From Thermoproteota archaeon (GTDB taxonomy: Archaea; Korarchaeota; JAOZGF01; JAOZFZ01), in the NCBI GenBank assembly GCA_027492035.1, contig JAOZFT010000022.1:1-20412 (forward strand): a stretch of 20,412 nucleotides of DNA, read 5' to 3'. A program made the position numbers and the translations under genes. Below are positions 1 to 20,412 of this stretch, in pieces. The first letter of the stretch is position 1. Every line of letters starts with the position of its first letter. The notes beneath the pieces were generated by a model. It saw nothing but the letters and a program-made list of their open reading frames with translations, was not told the DNA's origin and made no database searches.

Positions 1-1860
1 GAATACGCAAGAATCCCTTTAAGAAAAGGAGTGAACATTATCTGCGGCCCCAACGGTTCCGGAAAAAGCTCTATTCTACTTGCCTTGGCAGTAGCTCTAG
101 GTCAAACCTACACTGAAAGAGGGAGAAAACTAAGTGATCTAATCAGGAGAGGAAAGGATTTAGCCAGGGTTACTGTTGTTTTTGACAATTCCCCAAGAAA
201 AGGGAAAAGGCCAATACCTACGTGGAGAAATGACGACTTCTTACTTACCAGGTATATTAGAAAGGATGGAACTTATTGGCAAGAAATAAACTACAAAAGC
301 GTGACGAAAAACGAGGTAAGAAAGTTCCTTGAAAAGGTTGGAATTAACCCGGAAAACCTGTTGATTATTATGCATCAAAACATGATTGAGGAGTTCAGTT
401 TCCTTTCCCCTCAAGAGAAACTTCTGATGTTTGAGGAAGCAGTAGGTATTAAGGATTACCGTGAAAAAATTATTGAAGGAAGAAATAAACTTTCAGCTGT
501 GTTAAGTGAAGAAGAAGCTGTTAAAACAATGCTTAAAAAAGCACATGAAACCCTTTCTTACTGGGAAAAAGAATACAGGAAATTCCTGGAGAAAAAGGAG
601 CTGTTGAAAAGGAAAAAAGAGCTAGAGAGAGAATTAGCATGGGCCAAAGTAAAGAACCATGAAAGAACCCTTTCAAAACTTCAACAAGCAACGAAAAAAC
701 TTGAAAAAGAAATAACGGAGTTGAAAGCACTGCTTAAAAAAGAGAAACTGGAAATAAATGGGTGCAATTCACAAATCAACAAGTTACGAAAGCAAGTAGC
801 TAATAATTATGGGGAAGTTATTCAGTTAGAGAAGGAAATAACCCAGTTAGAAACAAAAAGGAAGATTTATTTAGAAATAAAGAATTTGTTAGGTGAAGAA
901 GAAAGGGTTACAAGGAAGAAACCCCTTGTCAAGTTCTTAGAAGAAATAACTTTTTCCCAGAAAGAAATAGACGAATTGAAGAAGAAAGTAAGGGAGGGGA
1001 AAAGGAGGATTAGTTCTGTAGAGGAGGAAAGGGATGTTTTCACCGAAAAATTGATTGGGTTAAAAATAAGTGAAGCGCTGCACATGTTCAAGGTAGAGCT
1101 GAAAACTGAAGAATTGGTAGACGTAAATAAGGAGATAAGGAAGGTAAGTAATGAACTGAAAGAACTTAAACTAAATGCTGAATTGAAGGGTGAAAGGGTG
1201 GAGAGTTTCAGGAAAATAAATGAAATAACTGACGAAATAAAGCTTGTGAATTCGAGATTAATGACGTTGAGGAATGTTTCACAAGACACTGAAACCTTTT
1301 ACCTAAATTACAAGGGAATAGTTAAGGATTTAGAGGAAAAAGCTAGAATAGCAGCGGAAAACAGGAAAAGAGCCATTGAAGAACTTGAGTTAAGGATTCG
1401 TAAATGGAGGGAGGTAGTAAGAAGTATTTTAAGGAACGTGAACAAAACCTATGACGAAATACTTAAAAAATTAAATGCTGTAGGTAACGTGAAGTTTGTA
1501 AACAGCCATGACGTTGAAGAAGCAGGCCTTGAGCTTCAAGTAGGTTTCCAGGGGGCTGAACCACAAATTCTTGACTCATACACTCAAAGCGGCGGAGAAA
1601 GGACGGTAGCAGTTATGTCTTTCCTTTTAGCTCTTCAACAGCACATAAAGTCACCTATAAGAGCAGTAGATGAATTCGACGTCCACATGGACCCAAAAAA
1701 TAGGGAAGCGTTACTTAATCAACTCTTCTCTGCAGTGGAGAAACAAAATATCCAGTATATAATCATCACACCTGGGATACTTCCAAATTTAAATGAAGAC
1801 GTGAATGTGATTGTGGTCCAGAATGTGGAGGGAGTTTCAAAAACAAGTTCAGTGGAGTGA
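1..1860 (+). CDS. SMC-family ATPase, Smc5/6-like, short coiled coil (5' partial)
   Basis: Probable motor subunit of a chromosome-structuring or DNA-repair SMC complex. The frame is open from base 1, so the true start lies outside the window; the GTG at 31 falls inside the conserved strand before Walker A and is not the start. Numbering from base 1, Walker A GPNGSGKSS is at 16-24. A Q-loop-like stretch with MHQN follows near 130, then long heptad-rich helices from about 150 to 480. The signature QSGGERT is at 529-535 and Walker B is SPIRAVDEFDVHMDP at 551-565, with D557 and E558. The Walker B segment and the following ITPGILPNL resemble Smc5 and Smc6 more than bacterial Smc or Rad50. There is no CxxC zinc hook and no obvious globular hinge of normal size, and each coiled-coil arm is only about 150 residues. 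The next gene begins 3 bases after the stop. ATPase/SMC identity is certain; the Smc5/6 affinity is inferred from motifs. Confidence 0.85.
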   Translation, partial: EYARIPLRKGVNIICGPNGSGKSSILLALAVALGQTYTERGRKLSDLIRRGKDLARVTVVFDNSPRKGKRPIPTWRNDDFLLTRYIRKDGTYWQEINYKSVTKNEVRKFLEKVGINPENLLIIMHQNMIEEFSFLSPQEKLLMFEEAVGIKDYREKIIEGRNKLSAVLSEEEAVKTMLKKAHETLSYWEKEYRKFLEKKELLKRKKELERELAWAKVKNHERTLSKLQQATKKLEKEITELKALLKKEKLEINGCNSQINKLRKQVANNYGEVIQLEKEITQLETKRKIYLEIKNLLGEEERVTRKKPLVKFLEEITFSQKEIDELKKKVREGKRRISSVEEERDVFTEKLIGLKISEALHMFKVELKTEELVDVNKEIRKVSNELKELKLNAELKGERVESFRKINEITDEIKLVNSRLMTLRNVSQDTETFYLNYKGIVKDLEEKARIAAENRKRAIEELELRIRKWREVVRSILRNVNKTYDEILKKLNAVGNVKFVNSHDVEEAGLELQVGFQGAEPQILDSYTQSGGERTVAVMSFLLALQQHIKSPIRAVDEFDVHMDPKNREALLNQLFSAVEKQNIQYIIITPGILPNLNEDVNVIVVQNVEGVSKTSSVE

Positions 1861-1863
1861 AGA

Positions 1864-2631
1864 ATGAAAAGGGAAGAAAAGGAATTAATTCAAAGAATTA
1901 TACAGCTTGGGGAAATGTTTGGAAAAGGGAACATAGACCCTTTCCAAATTAACGTAATAAGGTACTTAAACCTTTTAAGGGAAATATTTCCGAAAATGAA
2001 AACTACACAGGAACTGAAAATGGATATTGAAGCATTAAGGCAGTTGATTAACATAGTTTTTCAACAAAAGGAGTTTTTGAAACAGAAATCTTCAAAACTT
2101 TACCTGGACCCCTTACTTGTTGAATGGAAAATAGAAAACTTAAGCAATAAAGAGTTAAGTGAAATACTTATTAATTCGTGGCATCCAATAGTGGAAATAA
2201 ATCAGTTAAACAAAGAAAGGATTAAACAGTCAATAGAGTACTGGAGAGAGATTTTAGGTGGAAAAAGGAAGACGGAGCTTGAGAAACTATGTGAAGCTAC
2301 TCATGGAAAGATAAAACTTGAAGACCTTAAAAAGCATGGTTTTTTAAGTGAGGAAACCTTTATTCAAACCTTAAACAGTTTCTTTAAAGAAGTAACTTCG
2401 AAAATAATTGAAAAAGGACAAATATCTTATTGGGAAGCCGTGAAAAGTGAAAAGTTTCATCAAACAGTGAAGAAAGCTTACCTTCTAAGTTTCCTCTTAA
2501 CTGCAGGCTTATTAGAAATAGAAATAGATCCCATAAGGGAGGAAATCACCTTGAAAATTCCTATGAAAAGGAAGGGTGTTAGGATGGGGGGGTACTCCCT
2601 ACCTATTCCTCTCACACCTGGAAAAGTGTAG
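1864..2631 (+). CDS. Kleisin subunit, ScpA/Nse4-like
   Basis: A 255-residue protein that probably bridges the SMC heads, as kleisins do. Near the N-terminus, residues 23-78 have the ScpA-like pattern DPFQINVIRYL followed by a helix ending in a QxxFLKxKSSKLY-like stretch. This matches the kleisin helix bundle that contacts the SMC neck. The C-terminal part (about 165-235) looks like a winged helix. Its segment FHQTVKKAYLLSFLLTAGL (198-216) resembles the Nse4 C-terminal motif with SFxQTVxNxFxxSFL. The middle is lysine/glutamate-rich and probably extended. The ATG follows the SMC stop by 3 bases, with GGAG at 1854-1857 as the ribosome site inside the SMC gene, so translation is likely coupled. 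The assignment rests on pattern similarity and on its place between an SMC and a KITE-like gene; overall similarity to known kleisins is low. Confidence 0.6.
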   Translation: MKREEKELIQRIIQLGEMFGKGNIDPFQINVIRYLNLLREIFPKMKTTQELKMDIEALRQLINIVFQQKEFLKQKSSKLYLDPLLVEWKIENLSNKELSEILINSWHPIVEINQLNKERIKQSIEYWREILGGKRKTELEKLCEATHGKIKLEDLKKHGFLSEETFIQTLNSFFKEVTSKIIEKGQISYWEAVKSEKFHQTVKKAYLLSFLLTAGLLEIEIDPIREEITLKIPMKRKGVRMGGYSLPIPLTPGKV

Positions 2632-2659
2632 GAGTAAATGGGGAAGAGGAAAACAAGAA

Positions 2660-3235
2660 ATGTCTAAAAATGAACAATTGGAAATTAAAAGCAAAGTTGA
2701 GAAAGCAGCAAGGCTTTTATTAATGAAAAGGCAGCGTCAACCCGGAGTAAAGGGTTGGGAGTTAAAGAAAAACTTGGGGCCGAAATATTTAGAGGTTATA
2801 AAGCTCTTAAAGAAACAATTGGAGGATATAGGGTTATCAATTAAAATAATTCCCCAAGAGGAATCTGGAACAAATGGAAAGGAAGCAATGTACAATAAAG
2901 CAAAGTTTTATGTTGTTTTTAAGGAGCATCCCACTTTAAGTGAAGTTAAAACAGCAGGTTGGAGAATAGATGACTTAGCAATGCTTTCAGCAACTCTTTT
3001 ACAAATAATTTCACACCAAGGAAGAGTTGAAAGAAAGGAAGTTGAAGAAATGTTGTACAGCAAATTTTTAAAGTGGAGAGTCGACTACAACCTAAACAGG
3101 TTCATAAAAATGGGTTATTTAAGGGAAGATGAAAAAGGGTTACTTTACATAGATTGGAGGACTAAAGCTGAAATAGACAGCGAAACTTTAATGAGTTTAC
3201 TTTTAGCCAAACCCTCACTTAAGGAAAAAAGCTGA
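2660..3235 (+). CDS. KITE-type tandem winged-helix protein, Nse3/MAGE-like
   Basis: A 191-residue protein, probably the third subunit of the SMC complex, binding the kleisin. I chose the ATG at 2660. It is preceded by a purine-rich GGAAGAGG at 2642-2649, whereas starting at 2576 would overlap the kleisin gene by 56 bases and add an unlikely N-terminus. The first winged helix is about residues 12-65 (ARLLLMKRQRQPGVKGWELK, then a helix ending in LEDIGLSIKII). The second is about 104-168 (SATLLQIISHQGRVERKEVE, then LNRFIKMGYL and YIDWRTKAEID). The order of elements and the ending GYL...DWR.KxEI match the MAGE domain of Nse3, where an IDW...GPRGKxEIG segment occurs. ScpB, the bacterial KITE, is the alternative. 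It ends 30 bases from the convergent rubrerythrin stop, with short A and T runs between. Confidence 0.55.
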   Translation: MSKNEQLEIKSKVEKAARLLLMKRQRQPGVKGWELKKNLGPKYLEVIKLLKKQLEDIGLSIKIIPQEESGTNGKEAMYNKAKFYVVFKEHPTLSEVKTAGWRIDDLAMLSATLLQIISHQGRVERKEVEEMLYSKFLKWRVDYNLNRFIKMGYLREDEKGLLYIDWRTKAEIDSETLMSLLLAKPSLKEKS

Positions 3236-3979: not shown

Positions 3980-6853
3980 TTAAAAGTATTTTGCCTTCTC
4001 AAATTTATTCAGAAGCTCTTCCCTTTCAGCTCTCCAAATTTCTTCAAACAATTTATTAGTGACTTTATCCTCCCTTTCTATTAACTTTTTTGCTTTCTTG
4101 AAGCTTATGTTAGCAGTTAAAACAATAACTGCTAAAATTCCCTTTAAAGAAACAAGTTCAGATGTTTTAACTAGTTTTCTCCAGATTTTATTTTTCTTTT
4201 CAACTCCCTTCTTTCCTTTCAAAGTTTCTATTTCTCTCCTAACTTTTTCAACAGGTTCATTCACTAACCCTACCCTTTTTGACTTGCAGAAGGGGCAAGT
4301 GACCGGGGGCTCCAGCTCAAACACTTTCCTTTCTTCAACATATTTTAAACAGTTTAAGCAAACAAATACACGGGACTCTGAAAGAATTCTTGTTTTGACC
4401 GAGAGAATCCTTAACATCCTGTTTTTTTCAGGTTTAAATGGTTCAAGGTGCTCTTGAAGGAACTTAAACGAGTTTTTAGCTATTTCAGTGGGTTTTTCCT
4501 GCTCCCCTAAAACCTGTATCTCTATTTCTCCCTCCCTTATCTTTTCAAGTACTTTAGTTGTTTTCTCCAGATCTAAATCTTTACTTTTAACTTCTTTCAG
4601 TGCCTCGACATATACTGGAGTGTCTTTTAAACCAGTCAACAATTGTTCAATCAAAGTATTTGTCACCCTAACCTTCTTCTCCAATACACCCATTCTCTGC
4701 GCTACATGTGTTAGTCTCCACTTAAAGAAGCCACTCCTTGAAATGAAAGGCTCCAAGTAGGTTTCAATGTCTCTCTCATGCTCAACCAAAATTTCTTTAA
4801 TTACTGACGGAGTCAATGTTTCAGTGTTAATTATTATCCTGTATGGTCCTTCGTGGATATATATGTTTTCAGCTGTTAAATCCGTTAATTTAGAGGATAA
4901 ATACAGCCCCAAGGTTCTGTTGACTTTTGTGCCAAAATGCATGTGGACAATTATGTGCCCTTTAATTTTTTCAATCAGGACTCTTTTGTTTGTGGGTAAG
5001 GGCAAGCCTTTGGAGGCTTGGATATAGGCATCCTTCAACCCCTTAATTAAAGCTTCTTTACTGAAAGGGTAAACTTTTAAGGTTTCCTCCACTATTTCTG
5101 TAAAATTTCTTCCCTCCTTAACCATTCTCTCAACTATACCCCTTAATTCACCTACTTCTTGAGCTATTTCGAAGGGGACAGGGATGTATTCCCCTACCCA
5201 ACTGGGAATTGAACCTAGATAGTCTTCTTCAGGGGAAACATAAACTTTGTCCTCAAACACCTGAATTATTTTCCAAGGTTTGCCTGAAATAACGAATTTT
5301 GTCCCTGGAGTGCCGTGTTCGGCAACAAAGAAATCGTCAAGTAAACCTACAGGCAAGTTATCTTCCTCATTAATCACCAGGTATTGTTTAACTTCAGGTA
5401 TCATGGAGAGGTTTTGGTAGAAGTAATTGTATAGTCTTGCACGGTTCCTGCCTCGGCCGAATTCTCCATCTTCCCTTGAAAACCAAACAAATTTGTTTGG
5501 CAGGTTTTCCATGAAAAGTAAAAGCTTAACTAATTCTTCTTTTTCAAGGTTTCTGTAAGGATAAGCCTTTTTCACGAGATTAAAAAGCTCCTCTAAACCC
5601 CATTTGCCTTTTACAATTAAGTAACTAGTTATTTCATGCATCAAAACGTCTAAAGGTTTGTCAGGGATGTTTAATGGTTCAAGTTTTTCTTTTGAAGCAT
5701 TTTTAATTATTGCCAGGGATTCTAAAGCGTCGTCTGAGTTCTGAACCACTACAACCCCTTTAGAAACCTCTTCCAGTTTATGCCCACTTCTACCAATTCT
5801 TTGAATAAGTCTTGTAACCTGTCTTGGGGAATTGTACTGGATGCAGAAATCAATAGTTCCAATATCTATTCCTAACTCAAGGGATGAAGTGCAGATTACG
5901 CTTCTATACTCTCCCTCTTTTAACCCTTGCTCTGATTTAAGCCTTGTCGCAGTTGACAGTGAACCATGGTGAATGTTTATAGGTGTCTTCAAATCCAAGA
6001 GTTTAAACCTGCTCGTTAAAAGTTCAGCTGTGGTTCTTGTGTTTGTGAACAAAAGAGTTGTCTTGTTCCTATCTATTATTTCCCTTATCACCCTTAACCT
6101 GGCTGCAACTTCAGGGTGTAGGAAAAATTTCTGGGCTGAAAAGAAGTCCTTCCTAGAGGGGGTTGGAAAAACGACGTCAACCTTAATTTTTTTAGCTACA
6201 GGCACATAAACGATTTTACATTCCCTTCCTACACCACAAAGAAGTTTAGCTGCTTCTTTAGGGCTTCCCACGGTAGCCGACAAACCAATTATTTGAAAAT
6301 CTCTTCCAATAGTCCACCTTAACTTTTCAAGTGAGAGAGTTAACTGCACACCCCTCTTGTTCTCAGCTAATTCATGAACTTCATCCACAATAACCCATTT
6401 AACGGTTTTAAGTGTTTCACGCAGTAATTTACCGTTCAAAATTATTTGTAAAGTTTCAGGAGTTGTAATTAAAACATCAGGAGGAGCAATAACTTGTTTC
6501 CTTCTTTCAAAAGGGAGAGTGTCACCATGTCTCACATTAATTCTCACATCTAATCTTCTACACCACCATTCAAGCCTCTCAAGCAAATCCCTGTTCAAAG
6601 CCCTTAAAGGAGTTATGTAGATTAATTTGACACCGTACTCCCTAGGTGTTGAAAGGATTTTTTGCAGAACAGGTAAAAAAGCAGCTTCTGTTTTACCTGT
6701 TCCAGTTGGAGCAATTACTAAAACATTCTCTCCCTTAAGAATAAAAGGAATTGCTTCAAGCTGAGGGGGAGTAAGTTCAGTAAATCCATGAGCCTTAAAA
6801 AGCTCCTTAACAGGTTTAATTAACAAATTTAAAATTTGAGAGGAATCACTCAA
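3980..6853 (-). CDS. lhr: Lhr-type (Ski2-like SF2) ATP-dependent helicase
   Basis: A 957-residue DNA/RNA helicase of the Lhr family, whose members unwind or anneal nucleic acids and are linked to repair and RNA metabolism. Visible motifs are a Q-like motif FTELTPPQ (24-31), Walker A APTGTGKT (48-55), TPLRAL (81-86), DEVHEL (157-162), SATVG (192-196), the helicase 2 segment LELGIDIG (325-332) and QRIGRSGH (351-358). The Lhr core of winged-helix and beta-barrel domains follows, including a WKII...YLGSIPSWVGE stretch. Near the C-terminus four cysteines (C832, C835, C853, C856) form a zinc ribbon, after which comes a helical tail. The start is TTG: there is no usable ATG nearby, the TTG has GGTGG at 6862-6866 as a ribosome site, and the N-terminal length suits the family. 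The subfamily (aLhr1 or aLhr2) cannot be decided here. It appears monocistronic. Confidence 0.93.
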   Translation of the reverse strand: MSDSSQILNLLIKPVKELFKAHGFTELTPPQLEAIPFILKGENVLVIAPTGTGKTEAAFLPVLQKILSTPREYGVKLIYITPLRALNRDLLERLEWWCRRLDVRINVRHGDTLPFERRKQVIAPPDVLITTPETLQIILNGKLLRETLKTVKWVIVDEVHELAENKRGVQLTLSLEKLRWTIGRDFQIIGLSATVGSPKEAAKLLCGVGRECKIVYVPVAKKIKVDVVFPTPSRKDFFSAQKFFLHPEVAARLRVIREIIDRNKTTLLFTNTRTTAELLTSRFKLLDLKTPINIHHGSLSTATRLKSEQGLKEGEYRSVICTSSLELGIDIGTIDFCIQYNSPRQVTRLIQRIGRSGHKLEEVSKGVVVVQNSDDALESLAIIKNASKEKLEPLNIPDKPLDVLMHEITSYLIVKGKWGLEELFNLVKKAYPYRNLEKEELVKLLLFMENLPNKFVWFSREDGEFGRGRNRARLYNYFYQNLSMIPEVKQYLVINEEDNLPVGLLDDFFVAEHGTPGTKFVISGKPWKIIQVFEDKVYVSPEEDYLGSIPSWVGEYIPVPFEIAQEVGELRGIVERMVKEGRNFTEIVEETLKVYPFSKEALIKGLKDAYIQASKGLPLPTNKRVLIEKIKGHIIVHMHFGTKVNRTLGLYLSSKLTDLTAENIYIHEGPYRIIINTETLTPSVIKEILVEHERDIETYLEPFISRSGFFKWRLTHVAQRMGVLEKKVRVTNTLIEQLLTGLKDTPVYVEALKEVKSKDLDLEKTTKVLEKIREGEIEIQVLGEQEKPTEIAKNSFKFLQEHLEPFKPEKNRMLRILSVKTRILSESRVFVCLNCLKYVEERKVFELEPPVTCPFCKSKRVGLVNEPVEKVRREIETLKGKKGVEKKNKIWRKLVKTSELVSLKGILAVIVLTANISFKKAKKLIEREDKVTNKLFEEIWRAEREELLNKFEKAKYF

Positions 6854-7967: not shown

Positions 7968-8390
7968 TTATAGTTGAGAGATGCTTACTATGTGTTTTCT
8001 ATATTTCTCCCCTAAGGTTTGAGTTAATTTTTGATCTGCAGTGTAGAGCACGGTTTTCAGTTTAAGCGCTAGGGCTAAGTATGATGCGTCATATATAGTT
8101 ACATTTCTTTCTACTCCTATTTCAACAGTTTTTTCAGCCAGATCCCCTATTAAAGGGTAAAATAATATCCCGTAGCTTGAAAGTGACGCGGCGGCTGCTT
8201 TAAGTTCTTCTAAACTAAATAATTTACTATATTTAAGGGCGTTAAGGACTTCAAATGGAAGCAGCTCAGGTGCAACTATGTTTATTTCCCTGTTTACATG
8301 CATATCCCTCAGTTTGTTGGCTTTATCTGAATATTTCTCTTTAATAAACCACTTCGCAATTACACTGGCGTCACTGACCACGTTCTCCAT
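7968..8390 (-). CDS. vapC: PIN-domain ribonuclease toxin, VapC family
   Basis: A 140-residue single-domain PIN nuclease, the toxin of a type II toxin-antitoxin pair; VapC toxins cleave tRNA or rRNA. The acidic metal-binding residues are all visible: D7 in VVSDASV, E47 in LLPFEVLNAL, D101 in TIYDASYLALA and D119 in YTADQKL. The active site therefore appears intact. The ATG at 8388-8390 is preceded by GGAGGG, and the gene overlaps the end of the antitoxin gene by 20 bases, which couples their translation. It sits at the edge of a decayed region. Confidence 0.92.
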   Translation of the reverse strand: MENVVSDASVIAKWFIKEKYSDKANKLRDMHVNREINIVAPELLPFEVLNALKYSKLFSLEELKAAAASLSSYGILFYPLIGDLAEKTVEIGVERNVTIYDASYLALALKLKTVLYTADQKLTQTLGEKYRKHIVSISQL

Positions 8391-8616
8391 AGCGACTTTC
8401 CCTCCAGTGTCTTATTAAGTCAGTGCTGTTCCACCCTTTAGGGGCTGTTTTCCTAATTTTTTCGTTGAGTAACACTGCTTTGGCGAGGTTTCTCCCTTTC
8501 TCTTCCTCTATTACCCTTAAAACAGCGCTTCTAATGACCTCGCTCCAATTTATATGTTTAAGTTTCTCCATCTGCCTTTTAACATCTTCCTCTACTCTAA
8601 CACTTATTACAGGCAT
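8371..8616 (-). CDS. vapB: Ribbon-helix-helix antitoxin, VapB family
   Basis: An 81-residue antitoxin partner of the downstream VapC. The N-terminus ISVRVEEDVKRQMEKL followed by NWSEVIRSAV is a ribbon-helix-helix DNA-binding fold, which usually represses its own promoter. The C-terminal tail with DLIRHWRESRYG is the part that typically wraps the toxin active site. The ATG at 8614-8616 lies at the position expected for the transcript start from the TATA box at 8629-8640, so the message is probably leaderless; no ribosome site is visible. Confidence 0.88.
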   Translation of the reverse strand: MPVISVRVEEDVKRQMEKLKHINWSEVIRSAVLRVIEEEKGRNLAKAVLLNEKIRKTAPKGWNSTDLIRHWRESRYGERGQ

Positions 8617-20068: not shown

Positions 20069-20412
20069 ATGGGTTCCGAAGTTGAAAAGGATCAGGGGCA
20101 ATACTTCAGCATAGAAGTAGCTGAAGTTGAAGATCTAGTCAGAATAGCAGCTTGTTTACCTTCAGGAGGACCTGTAGGGATCCCCATCATCCTTCATTTA
20201 GAGAAAAGAAACAAACATGTCTACTTAGTTATTCCCATCTTCTCTATCTCGGACGAAGAGCACAAAGTTGTTTTTTATTCAGTTTTGGAGGAAACCGTTA
20301 AGAAAAAATTTGCTAAGTACAAGGTTGAAGATGGAAAAGAGGAAATTTCTTTCACAAACGATTTAAAGGATGCAGAGGCTAAGTACTTCCCCATAATAAC
20401 AATTAAAAAACT
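20069..20412 (+). CDS. Unrecognised protein, 3' partial
   Basis: An open frame from the ATG at 20069 to the window end (114 complete codons, no stop). The ATG abuts the stop of the FrhB-like gene, with GAGG at 20060-20063 as the ribosome site, so the two are co-transcribed and coupled. The visible part begins with an acidic, polar stretch. It then has a segment with CLPSGGPVGIPIILHLEK, a beta-rich hydrophobic strand (VYLVIPIFSI), and a charged alpha-helical stretch. There are no membrane helices, signal peptide or cysteine motifs. I do not recognise the family; the context suggests a partner or accessory of the FrhB-like protein. Confidence 0.75.
   Translation, partial: MGSEVEKDQGQYFSIEVAEVEDLVRIAACLPSGGPVGIPIILHLEKRNKHVYLVIPIFSISDEEHKVVFYSVLEETVKKKFAKYKVEDGKEEISFTNDLKDAEAKYFPIITIKK

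Follow-up and report, generated by a model that had tools for sequence, protein, structure and literature searches.

Which kind of SMC complex is encoded by three adjacent genes at the start of a contig from a Thermoproteota archaeon (Korarchaeota lineage), and could it be the ancestral form of the eukaryotic Smc5/6 complex? The contig (G000:C4; JAOZFT010000022.1) was analyzed over its whole length of 20,412 nt, hereafter called the window, and positions 1 to 3235 hold three co-directional genes in the order SMC, kleisin, and KITE. A sequence-only reading had proposed that these genes form an operon for an SMC complex other than Smc-ScpA-ScpB, with a head like those of Smc5 and Smc6, and had named the complex a candidate for the ancestral form of Smc5/6. 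The analysis described here bears out the identity of the parts and speaks against the ancestral form. We assign a probability of roughly 0.8 to the reading that the three genes specify a second SMC complex of the KITE type, which stands beside canonical SMC-ScpA, falls on the Smc5/6 side among SMC proteins, has lost the hinge, and has short arms. The features of the three genes are as follows.

1 to 1860, plus strand: SMC ATPase without a hinge, probably of the Smc5/6 class, its 5' end lost at the contig start, which leaves 619 aa in the window (SMC_N match, E = 6e-33, beyond chance; profile ranking in the PDB; AlphaFold)
31 to 78, plus strand: Walker A region VNIICGPNGSGKSSIL, residues 11 to 26, with no variation among 42 members at G16 to G19 or at G21 to S23
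451 to 888, plus strand: predicted ascending arm, one uninterrupted helix, residues 151 to 296 (AlphaFold2)
889 to 918, plus strand: predicted arm tip, a low-confidence turn of about 10 residues (297 to 306) at the hinge position of other SMC proteins (AlphaFold2; hinge hidden Markov model)
1588 to 1695, plus strand: signature SGGERT to Walker B RAVDEFDVHMDP, residues 530 to 565, with D557 and E558 invariant
1864 to 2631, plus strand: Nse4-like kleisin, 255 aa (Nse4_C family matches; profile search of the PDB)
2660 to 3235, plus strand: Nse3/MAGE-like KITE with predicted tandem winged helices, 191 aa (AlphaFold, Foldseek, VIA)

The missing SMC N-terminus, MKVAETLEVTNSFLKEVIIENFMSY, was supplied by contig C8 of the same genome (reverse complement), the terminal 127 bases of which are identical to the first 127 bases of the window. 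As this overlap adds 25 residues, the full SMC comprises about 644 aa. The open frame of the KITE gene extends back to a GTG at 2576 (open reading frame 2576 to 3235); its start is likely the ATG at 2660, which lies ten bases downstream of GGGGAAGAGG.

The SMC head is closest to Smc5 and Smc6

The ATPase motifs of the window SMC are complete, and the Walker A region, the signature, and the Walker B residues D557 and E558 are invariant across the 42 aligned family members, all of which match SMC_N. The two segments singled out by the sequence-only reading, DEFDVHMDP and ITPGILPNL, are both present; the Walker B resembles that of Smc6 and the ITP segment that of Smc5. When a profile of the whole SMC was compared with all PDB sequences, every Smc5 and Smc6 in the PDB ranked above all other SMCs (human SMC6, 209 bits; yeast Smc5, 199; yeast Smc6, 182; human SMC5, 174; best archaeal Smc, 144; SMC2, 129). 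The C-terminal half of the head (C-head) appears to be the most telling part of the protein for this kinship: its profile gave 93 to 101 bits for Smc5, 53 to 62 for SMC6, and 53 to 57 for archaeal Smc in the PDB, and 22 to 56 bits for the canonical SMCs of archaea, with 48 bits for the canonical SMC of the window's own genome. Rad50 scored far below the SMCs in profile searches with the family.

Phylogenetic trees were in line with this ranking. A tree of the N- and C-terminal half-heads together (N+C) separated the window's family and SMC5/6 from canonical SMCs and SMC2 with an ultrafast bootstrap (UFBoot) support of 98. In a denser tree, the window's family, eukaryotic SMC5/6, and hinged SMCs from putative Asgard genomes (see below) fell on one side with a UFBoot of 100, with the canonical SMCs opposite. 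The eukaryotic rows in these trees are fragments taken from PDB search alignments, some of them without one half-head. The head did not group with Rad50. Collectively, several measures favor, and do not prove, a kinship of the window SMC with Smc5/6.

Wadjet, which has the nuclease JetD, and likewise Rad50, ASRP, and arcadin-4 were each weighed as the identity of the complex and dismissed because head scores, partner proteins, or the missing effector spoke against them.

The SMC has no hinge

In known kleisin-bound complexes, the SMC pair is joined by a hinge domain. The AlphaFold2 model of the window SMC (42 sequences; mean predicted local distance difference test score [pLDDT], 83.9) is a plain helical hairpin. 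At 1.5 Å per residue, the 146 helical residues of its ascending arm would span about 22 nm, and the returning helix starts at residue 307 and breaks near the joint. A profile of the canonical archaeal hinge, which recognized 20 of 22 canonical archaeal SMCs at 143 to 206 bits, matched none of 49 family members (best, 4.1 bits). This profile replaced an earlier one, seeded on the SMC of a putative Asgard genome (G226), that had missed canonical hinges. The new profile in turn misses some divergent hinges, namely those of G226 and other Asgard SMCs, which Pfam SMC_hinge finds, and the hinge-loss call therefore also draws on the AlphaFold model and on the small size of the proteins (66 complete members, 555 to 726 aa). 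Pfam SMC_hinge was not among the 25 commonest families of 42 members, which leaves its presence in a few possible. Taken together, sequence and model indicate that the window SMC is without a hinge. Inspection of the apex showed no CxxC motif in the window SMC or in the short family members.

A canonical-type SMC of 728 aa with a DEIDAHLD Walker B (L190; G042:C1:325000-328500, minus strand) was also negative with the hinge profile, which suggests that the hinge may have been lost more than once among archaeal SMCs.

The partners are an Nse4-like kleisin and an Nse3/MAGE-like KITE

The kleisin has an Nse4-type C-terminus, as had been read from the sequence. Pfam Nse4_C was matched by 52 of 54 kleisin members (best, 5.7e-6); the window kleisin itself scores 18.3 bits, below the curated cutoff of 26. 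A profile of the kleisin family found yeast Nse4 (3.5e-6), human EID3 (5.8e-5), and the ScpA N-domain (0.33) in the PDB and no others. The ScpA family was not among the matches listed for these kleisins, and the real ScpA of the genome scores 8e-14 for it. These searches required profiles, as single-sequence searches of the PDB with the kleisin and with the KITE were uninformative. On this sequence evidence, the family's kleisin is assigned to the Nse4 type.

The KITE was modeled with AlphaFold2 from 50 sequences, starting 5 residues past the ATG, as tandem winged helices (pLDDT, 84.5; predicted template modeling score, 0.60). Foldseek ranks 1 to 8 in the PDB were all chains of MAGE, Nse1/Nse3, or Smc5/6 entries, and VIA-align gave a Z score of 13.6 to the MAGE-domain Nse3 7dg2_C over residues 1 to 181, compared to 8.9 for ScpB and 8.7 for JetB. 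An enlarged KITE profile lost a weak match to a MAGE chain in the PDB that a smaller profile had found, and the call therefore rests on structure. The modeled fold supports the Nse3/MAGE type claimed for the third protein.

Dozens of archaea have the same three-gene order

When 61 genomes were searched with the kleisin, 13 had a relative, the window's own genome among them, and the SMC-kleisin-KITE order was kept in all 12 others. Genome contigs were further scanned with the KITE alignment alone, which yielded 183 relatives, of which 80 were kept. These stem mostly from Bathyarchaeota and also from Hadesarchaea, Hecatellales, Culexarchaeota, Methylarchaceae, and others. The KITE adjoins the kleisin in all 87 loci that have both on the contig, and an SMC gene lies at most 1 kb upstream in 74 of the 82 loci with a contig long enough for the test. 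The median gap between SMC and kleisin is 0 bp, and the kleisin and KITE frames overlap in 82 loci. Seven genomes have no adjacent SMC; five of them encode a strong SMC of the window's family elsewhere. As most loci were collected by the KITE alone and not by linkage, the linkage is independent evidence for a common function. The conservation of gene order in related archaea, which the sequence-only reading had named as a check, is present. Two genomes (L053 and L093; L062 and L076) have a second kleisin-KITE pair, which in L053 has no SMC beside it.

The window's genome also encodes an adjacent canonical SMC and ScpA, as well as a Rad50-like protein. It has one Smc5/6-type SMC, in agreement with the single gene noted from the sequence, and the checked genomes without an adjacent SMC have at most one each. 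One KITE was found with the profile of the window's family, a search that a very divergent second KITE could escape. Genes for Nse2 and Nse5/6 were not seen in the operon, and the genome was not searched for them. The canonical SMC gene (L149:4995-7850; G000:C9, minus strand), which adjoins ScpA, has an apparent intein in its Walker A (GPNGSGK followed by CVKGDTLIQL...).

Hinged relatives occur in putative Asgard genomes

A weak kleisin match in genome G226 led to an SMC of 1145 aa, a kleisin, and a KITE in a row. Large genomes related to G226 have weak profilin matches, and in one of them a Gtr1/Rag-type GTPase lies beside a canonical SMC. From these two kinds of match, we infer that the genomes belong to Asgard archaea. 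The KITE was found in 65 of 148 genomes of this putative Asgard phylum, and the row of SMC, kleisin, and KITE in 20 of 21 loci examined. Pfam detects SMC_hinge in all seven of the SMCs scanned; the scores of two are near or below the strong range. The loci are as follows.

L151, L235, L238, and L260 to L275: putative Asgard loci with operons of a hinged SMC, apparently on the Smc5/6 side, a kleisin, and a KITE

In L151, L235, and L238 a gene of 370 to 440 aa precedes the operon; its product is AAA-like in L151. An Asgard-type KITE (L264:6890-7450) has a match to Pfam ScpB (1.2e-6), which connects the Nse3-like KITE family with the ScpB-like one. Profile-profile comparison of the Asgard group with the window's family gave E = 2.5e-5 and a probability of 75% for the kleisin and E = 3.6e-4 and 37% for the KITE, moderate support for homology of both proteins. 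A canonical identity of the G226 SMC, suggested by a C-head score of only 40 bits and by a tree of the C-head only, was rejected, as with the N+C heads it falls on the Smc5/6 side. Trees built from one domain are unreliable for these proteins, because G226 shifts sides between the C-head-only and N+C trees.

Most simply read, these sequences point to an ancestral hinge that the window's branch has lost. Because archaeal relatives with a hinge show the same gene order, the window's form would be a derived side branch.

Genes around the operon

A rubrerythrin gene on the opposite strand follows directly after the KITE gene. Another neighbor is as follows.

3980 to 6853, minus strand: Lhr-family helicase, convergent to the operon and outside the complex, found near the operon in 24 loci including the window

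The helicase is a possible functional partner of the SMC complex; it hints at DNA repair and does not prove it. Upstream of the SMC gene, 29 loci have a divergent gene for a 230-aa protein of no known Pfam family (for example, L018:7233-7937 and L034:2401-3105, minus strand). Ribosomal or translation genes adjoin the operon in some loci. Downstream of the KITE, some Bathyarchaeota (L027, L031, L040, L057, L062, L076) have CdvB/ESCRT-III-like genes, one with a weak Snf7 match. Elsewhere in the window, a VapBC-like toxin-antitoxin pair (PIN domain and VapB-type antitoxin) lies at 7968 to 8616 on the minus strand, and a truncated open reading frame at 20069 to 20410 has a weak match to the Cap15 cyclic-dinucleotide receptor (0.0015, below the Pfam cutoff).

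Discussion

Several observations weigh against a KITE-type complex on the Smc5/6 side with its hinge lost. The N-terminal half-head profile alone does not discriminate (SMC2, 86 bits; Smc5, 83; Smc6, 79), and in structure comparison the whole-SMC model matches many SMC heads about equally. Sequence support for the KITE is weak, with MAGE matched in 6 of 50 members (best, 0.0052). Approximately unbiased (AU) tests on constrained trees of the denser set (287 columns) reject none of five placements (P = 0.11 to 0.83; 0.11 to 0.37 for the alternatives), so that the phylogeny proposed for the head sides with Smc5/6 at UFBoot values of 98 to 100 and leaves every alternative standing. Among these is a placement with the canonical SMCs (P = 0.11), the point in favor of regarding the complex as merely a diverged canonical Smc-ScpA-ScpB or Rad50-type complex. 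We consider this very unlikely, because this genome encodes a canonical SMC and its ScpA separately, parts of Smc5/6 head the rankings for all three proteins, and Rad50 ranks far below.

That the complex is the direct, homodimeric ancestral form inherited by eukaryotes as Smc5/6 would fit the best tree, in which the window's family is sister to eukaryotic SMC5/6 (UFBoot, 98 to 99), and the combination of a Smc6-like Walker B with a Smc5-like ITP segment in one protein. This nevertheless appears unlikely: the window SMC is without the hinge that eukaryotic Smc5/6 has, hinged SMC-kleisin-KITE operons of putative Asgard archaea with the same gene order branch just outside, and the branching order is not fixed by the AU tests. 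The single SMC gene suggests a homodimer, an assembly that is less easily assumed when no hinge is present. A defense complex against plasmids or viruses, akin to Wadjet or antiviral Smc5/6, would share its KITE-type architecture with Wadjet (JetB Z score, 8.7), and Smc5/6 is active in human antiviral immunity (PMC10586767). It is rather unlikely here, as no nuclease effector gene lies beside the operon, the recurrent neighbors are of housekeeping type (the Lhr helicase and, in some loci, the ribosomal/translation and CdvB-like genes), and linkage is stable and copy number low over many genomes.

For the preferred reading, a second, KITE-type complex without a hinge, a mechanism can be sketched from known relatives. 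As in Smc5/6 and Smc-ScpAB, two SMC heads would sandwich two ATP molecules. By analogy, the kleisin C-terminus would cap one head, its N-terminal helices would bind the neck of the other, and two KITE copies on one kleisin would press DNA onto the engaged heads; upon ATP hydrolysis the clamp would open and free the DNA. Without a hinge, the SMC pair would be held by the heads and the kleisin and perhaps also by the helical tips. Since no hinge-closed DNA compartment can form, clamping or short-range movement is likelier than a large hinge-closed ring. In a variant of this reading, the arm tips dimerize through a non-hinge contact (bundled helices or, in long members, a zinc hook), giving a closed ring that could extrude loops with shorter steps. 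We regard this variant as tentative. Residue A359 near the tip, within an LVExxVxxA stretch, is nearly invariant, and a long relative (P0004; L223:1-2424, G404:C85; at least 807 aa, truncated by the contig) has at its apex a CNKC resembling the Rad50 zinc hook. This CxxC counts against a simple hingeless clamp, as apex dimerization may matter after all; against the variant, the AlphaFold tip is a short low-confidence turn, the tip region varies in length, and the short members are without CxxC. In the P0004 genome, the kleisin and KITE lie on another contig (L028). A role in genome maintenance, in repair or under replication stress, is likely for the complex, with the Lhr helicase as the sole contextual hint.

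Among known systems, the eukaryotic Smc5/6 core (Smc5, Smc6, Nse4, Nse3, Nse1) is the nearest relative of the window SMC by whole-protein and C-head profiles, of the kleisin C-terminus, and of the KITE fold, and the KITE-type architecture is found in both. Unlike it, the window's complex has one SMC instead of two, no hinge, shorter arms, and one KITE, as found by the family-profile search, instead of Nse1 (with its RING) and Nse3; no Nse2/5/6 genes lie beside the operon. The window's family is therefore a relative of the Smc5/6 class rather than an ordinary member, as it is without the hinge. Canonical archaeal Smc-ScpA and bacterial Smc-ScpA-ScpB have the SMC and kleisin logic in common with it but possess a hinge and are less similar in all three proteins. 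Rad50, ASRP (ClsN/Sph), and RecN are SMC-like proteins in which a zinc hook or plain tip replaces the hinge, with heads further from the window SMC. ASRP (ClsN/Sph) and RecN are not known to have kleisin and KITE partners. Wadjet JetABC and MukBEF share the operon of kleisin, KITE, and SMC, but their SMCs are of a different class and their KITEs less similar (JetB, as above). Rad50 is without kleisin and KITE partners (PMC10586767), and the Wadjet and MukBEF SMCs have a hinge (PMC10512200).

Archaeal "SMC5/6-related" SMCs that group with SMC5 and SMC6 have been published (Yoshinaga and Inagaki 2021, cited in PMC9389158), and these are very probably the same set as the window's family or one that overlaps with it. 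As far as the cited account goes, that description covers the SMC only; the kleisin, the KITE, and the hinge loss are added here. In a 2023 review, Smc5/6 is the KITE complex named for eukaryotes, and those named for prokaryotes are Smc-ScpAB and MukBEF/MksBEF/Wadjet. A literature search without preprints and most subscription journals found no report of Nse4-like and Nse3-like partners, the operon, or hinge loss for the archaeal SMC5/6-related SMCs; within that literature, the SMC type is known, and the partners, operon, and hinge loss are apparently new.

On balance, we lean toward the view that archaea had, before eukaryotes, both canonical SMC-ScpA and a separate KITE-type complex of the Smc5/6 class, represented today by the hinged Asgard operons and a hingeless branch, and that an SMC-kleisin-KITE machine can do without a hinge. 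Archaeal Smc complexes have no KITE partner, according to the argument of a 2020 study (PMC7055376); the window's operon family qualifies this view. An operon with Nse4-like and Nse3-like partners brings the origin of Smc5/6, one of the three eukaryotic SMC complexes, within reach of tests on small subunits, each from a single gene. Through its natural loss, the purpose of the hinge can also be tested directly: should the complex still bind, clamp, or move DNA, closing a ring by way of a hinge would not be essential.

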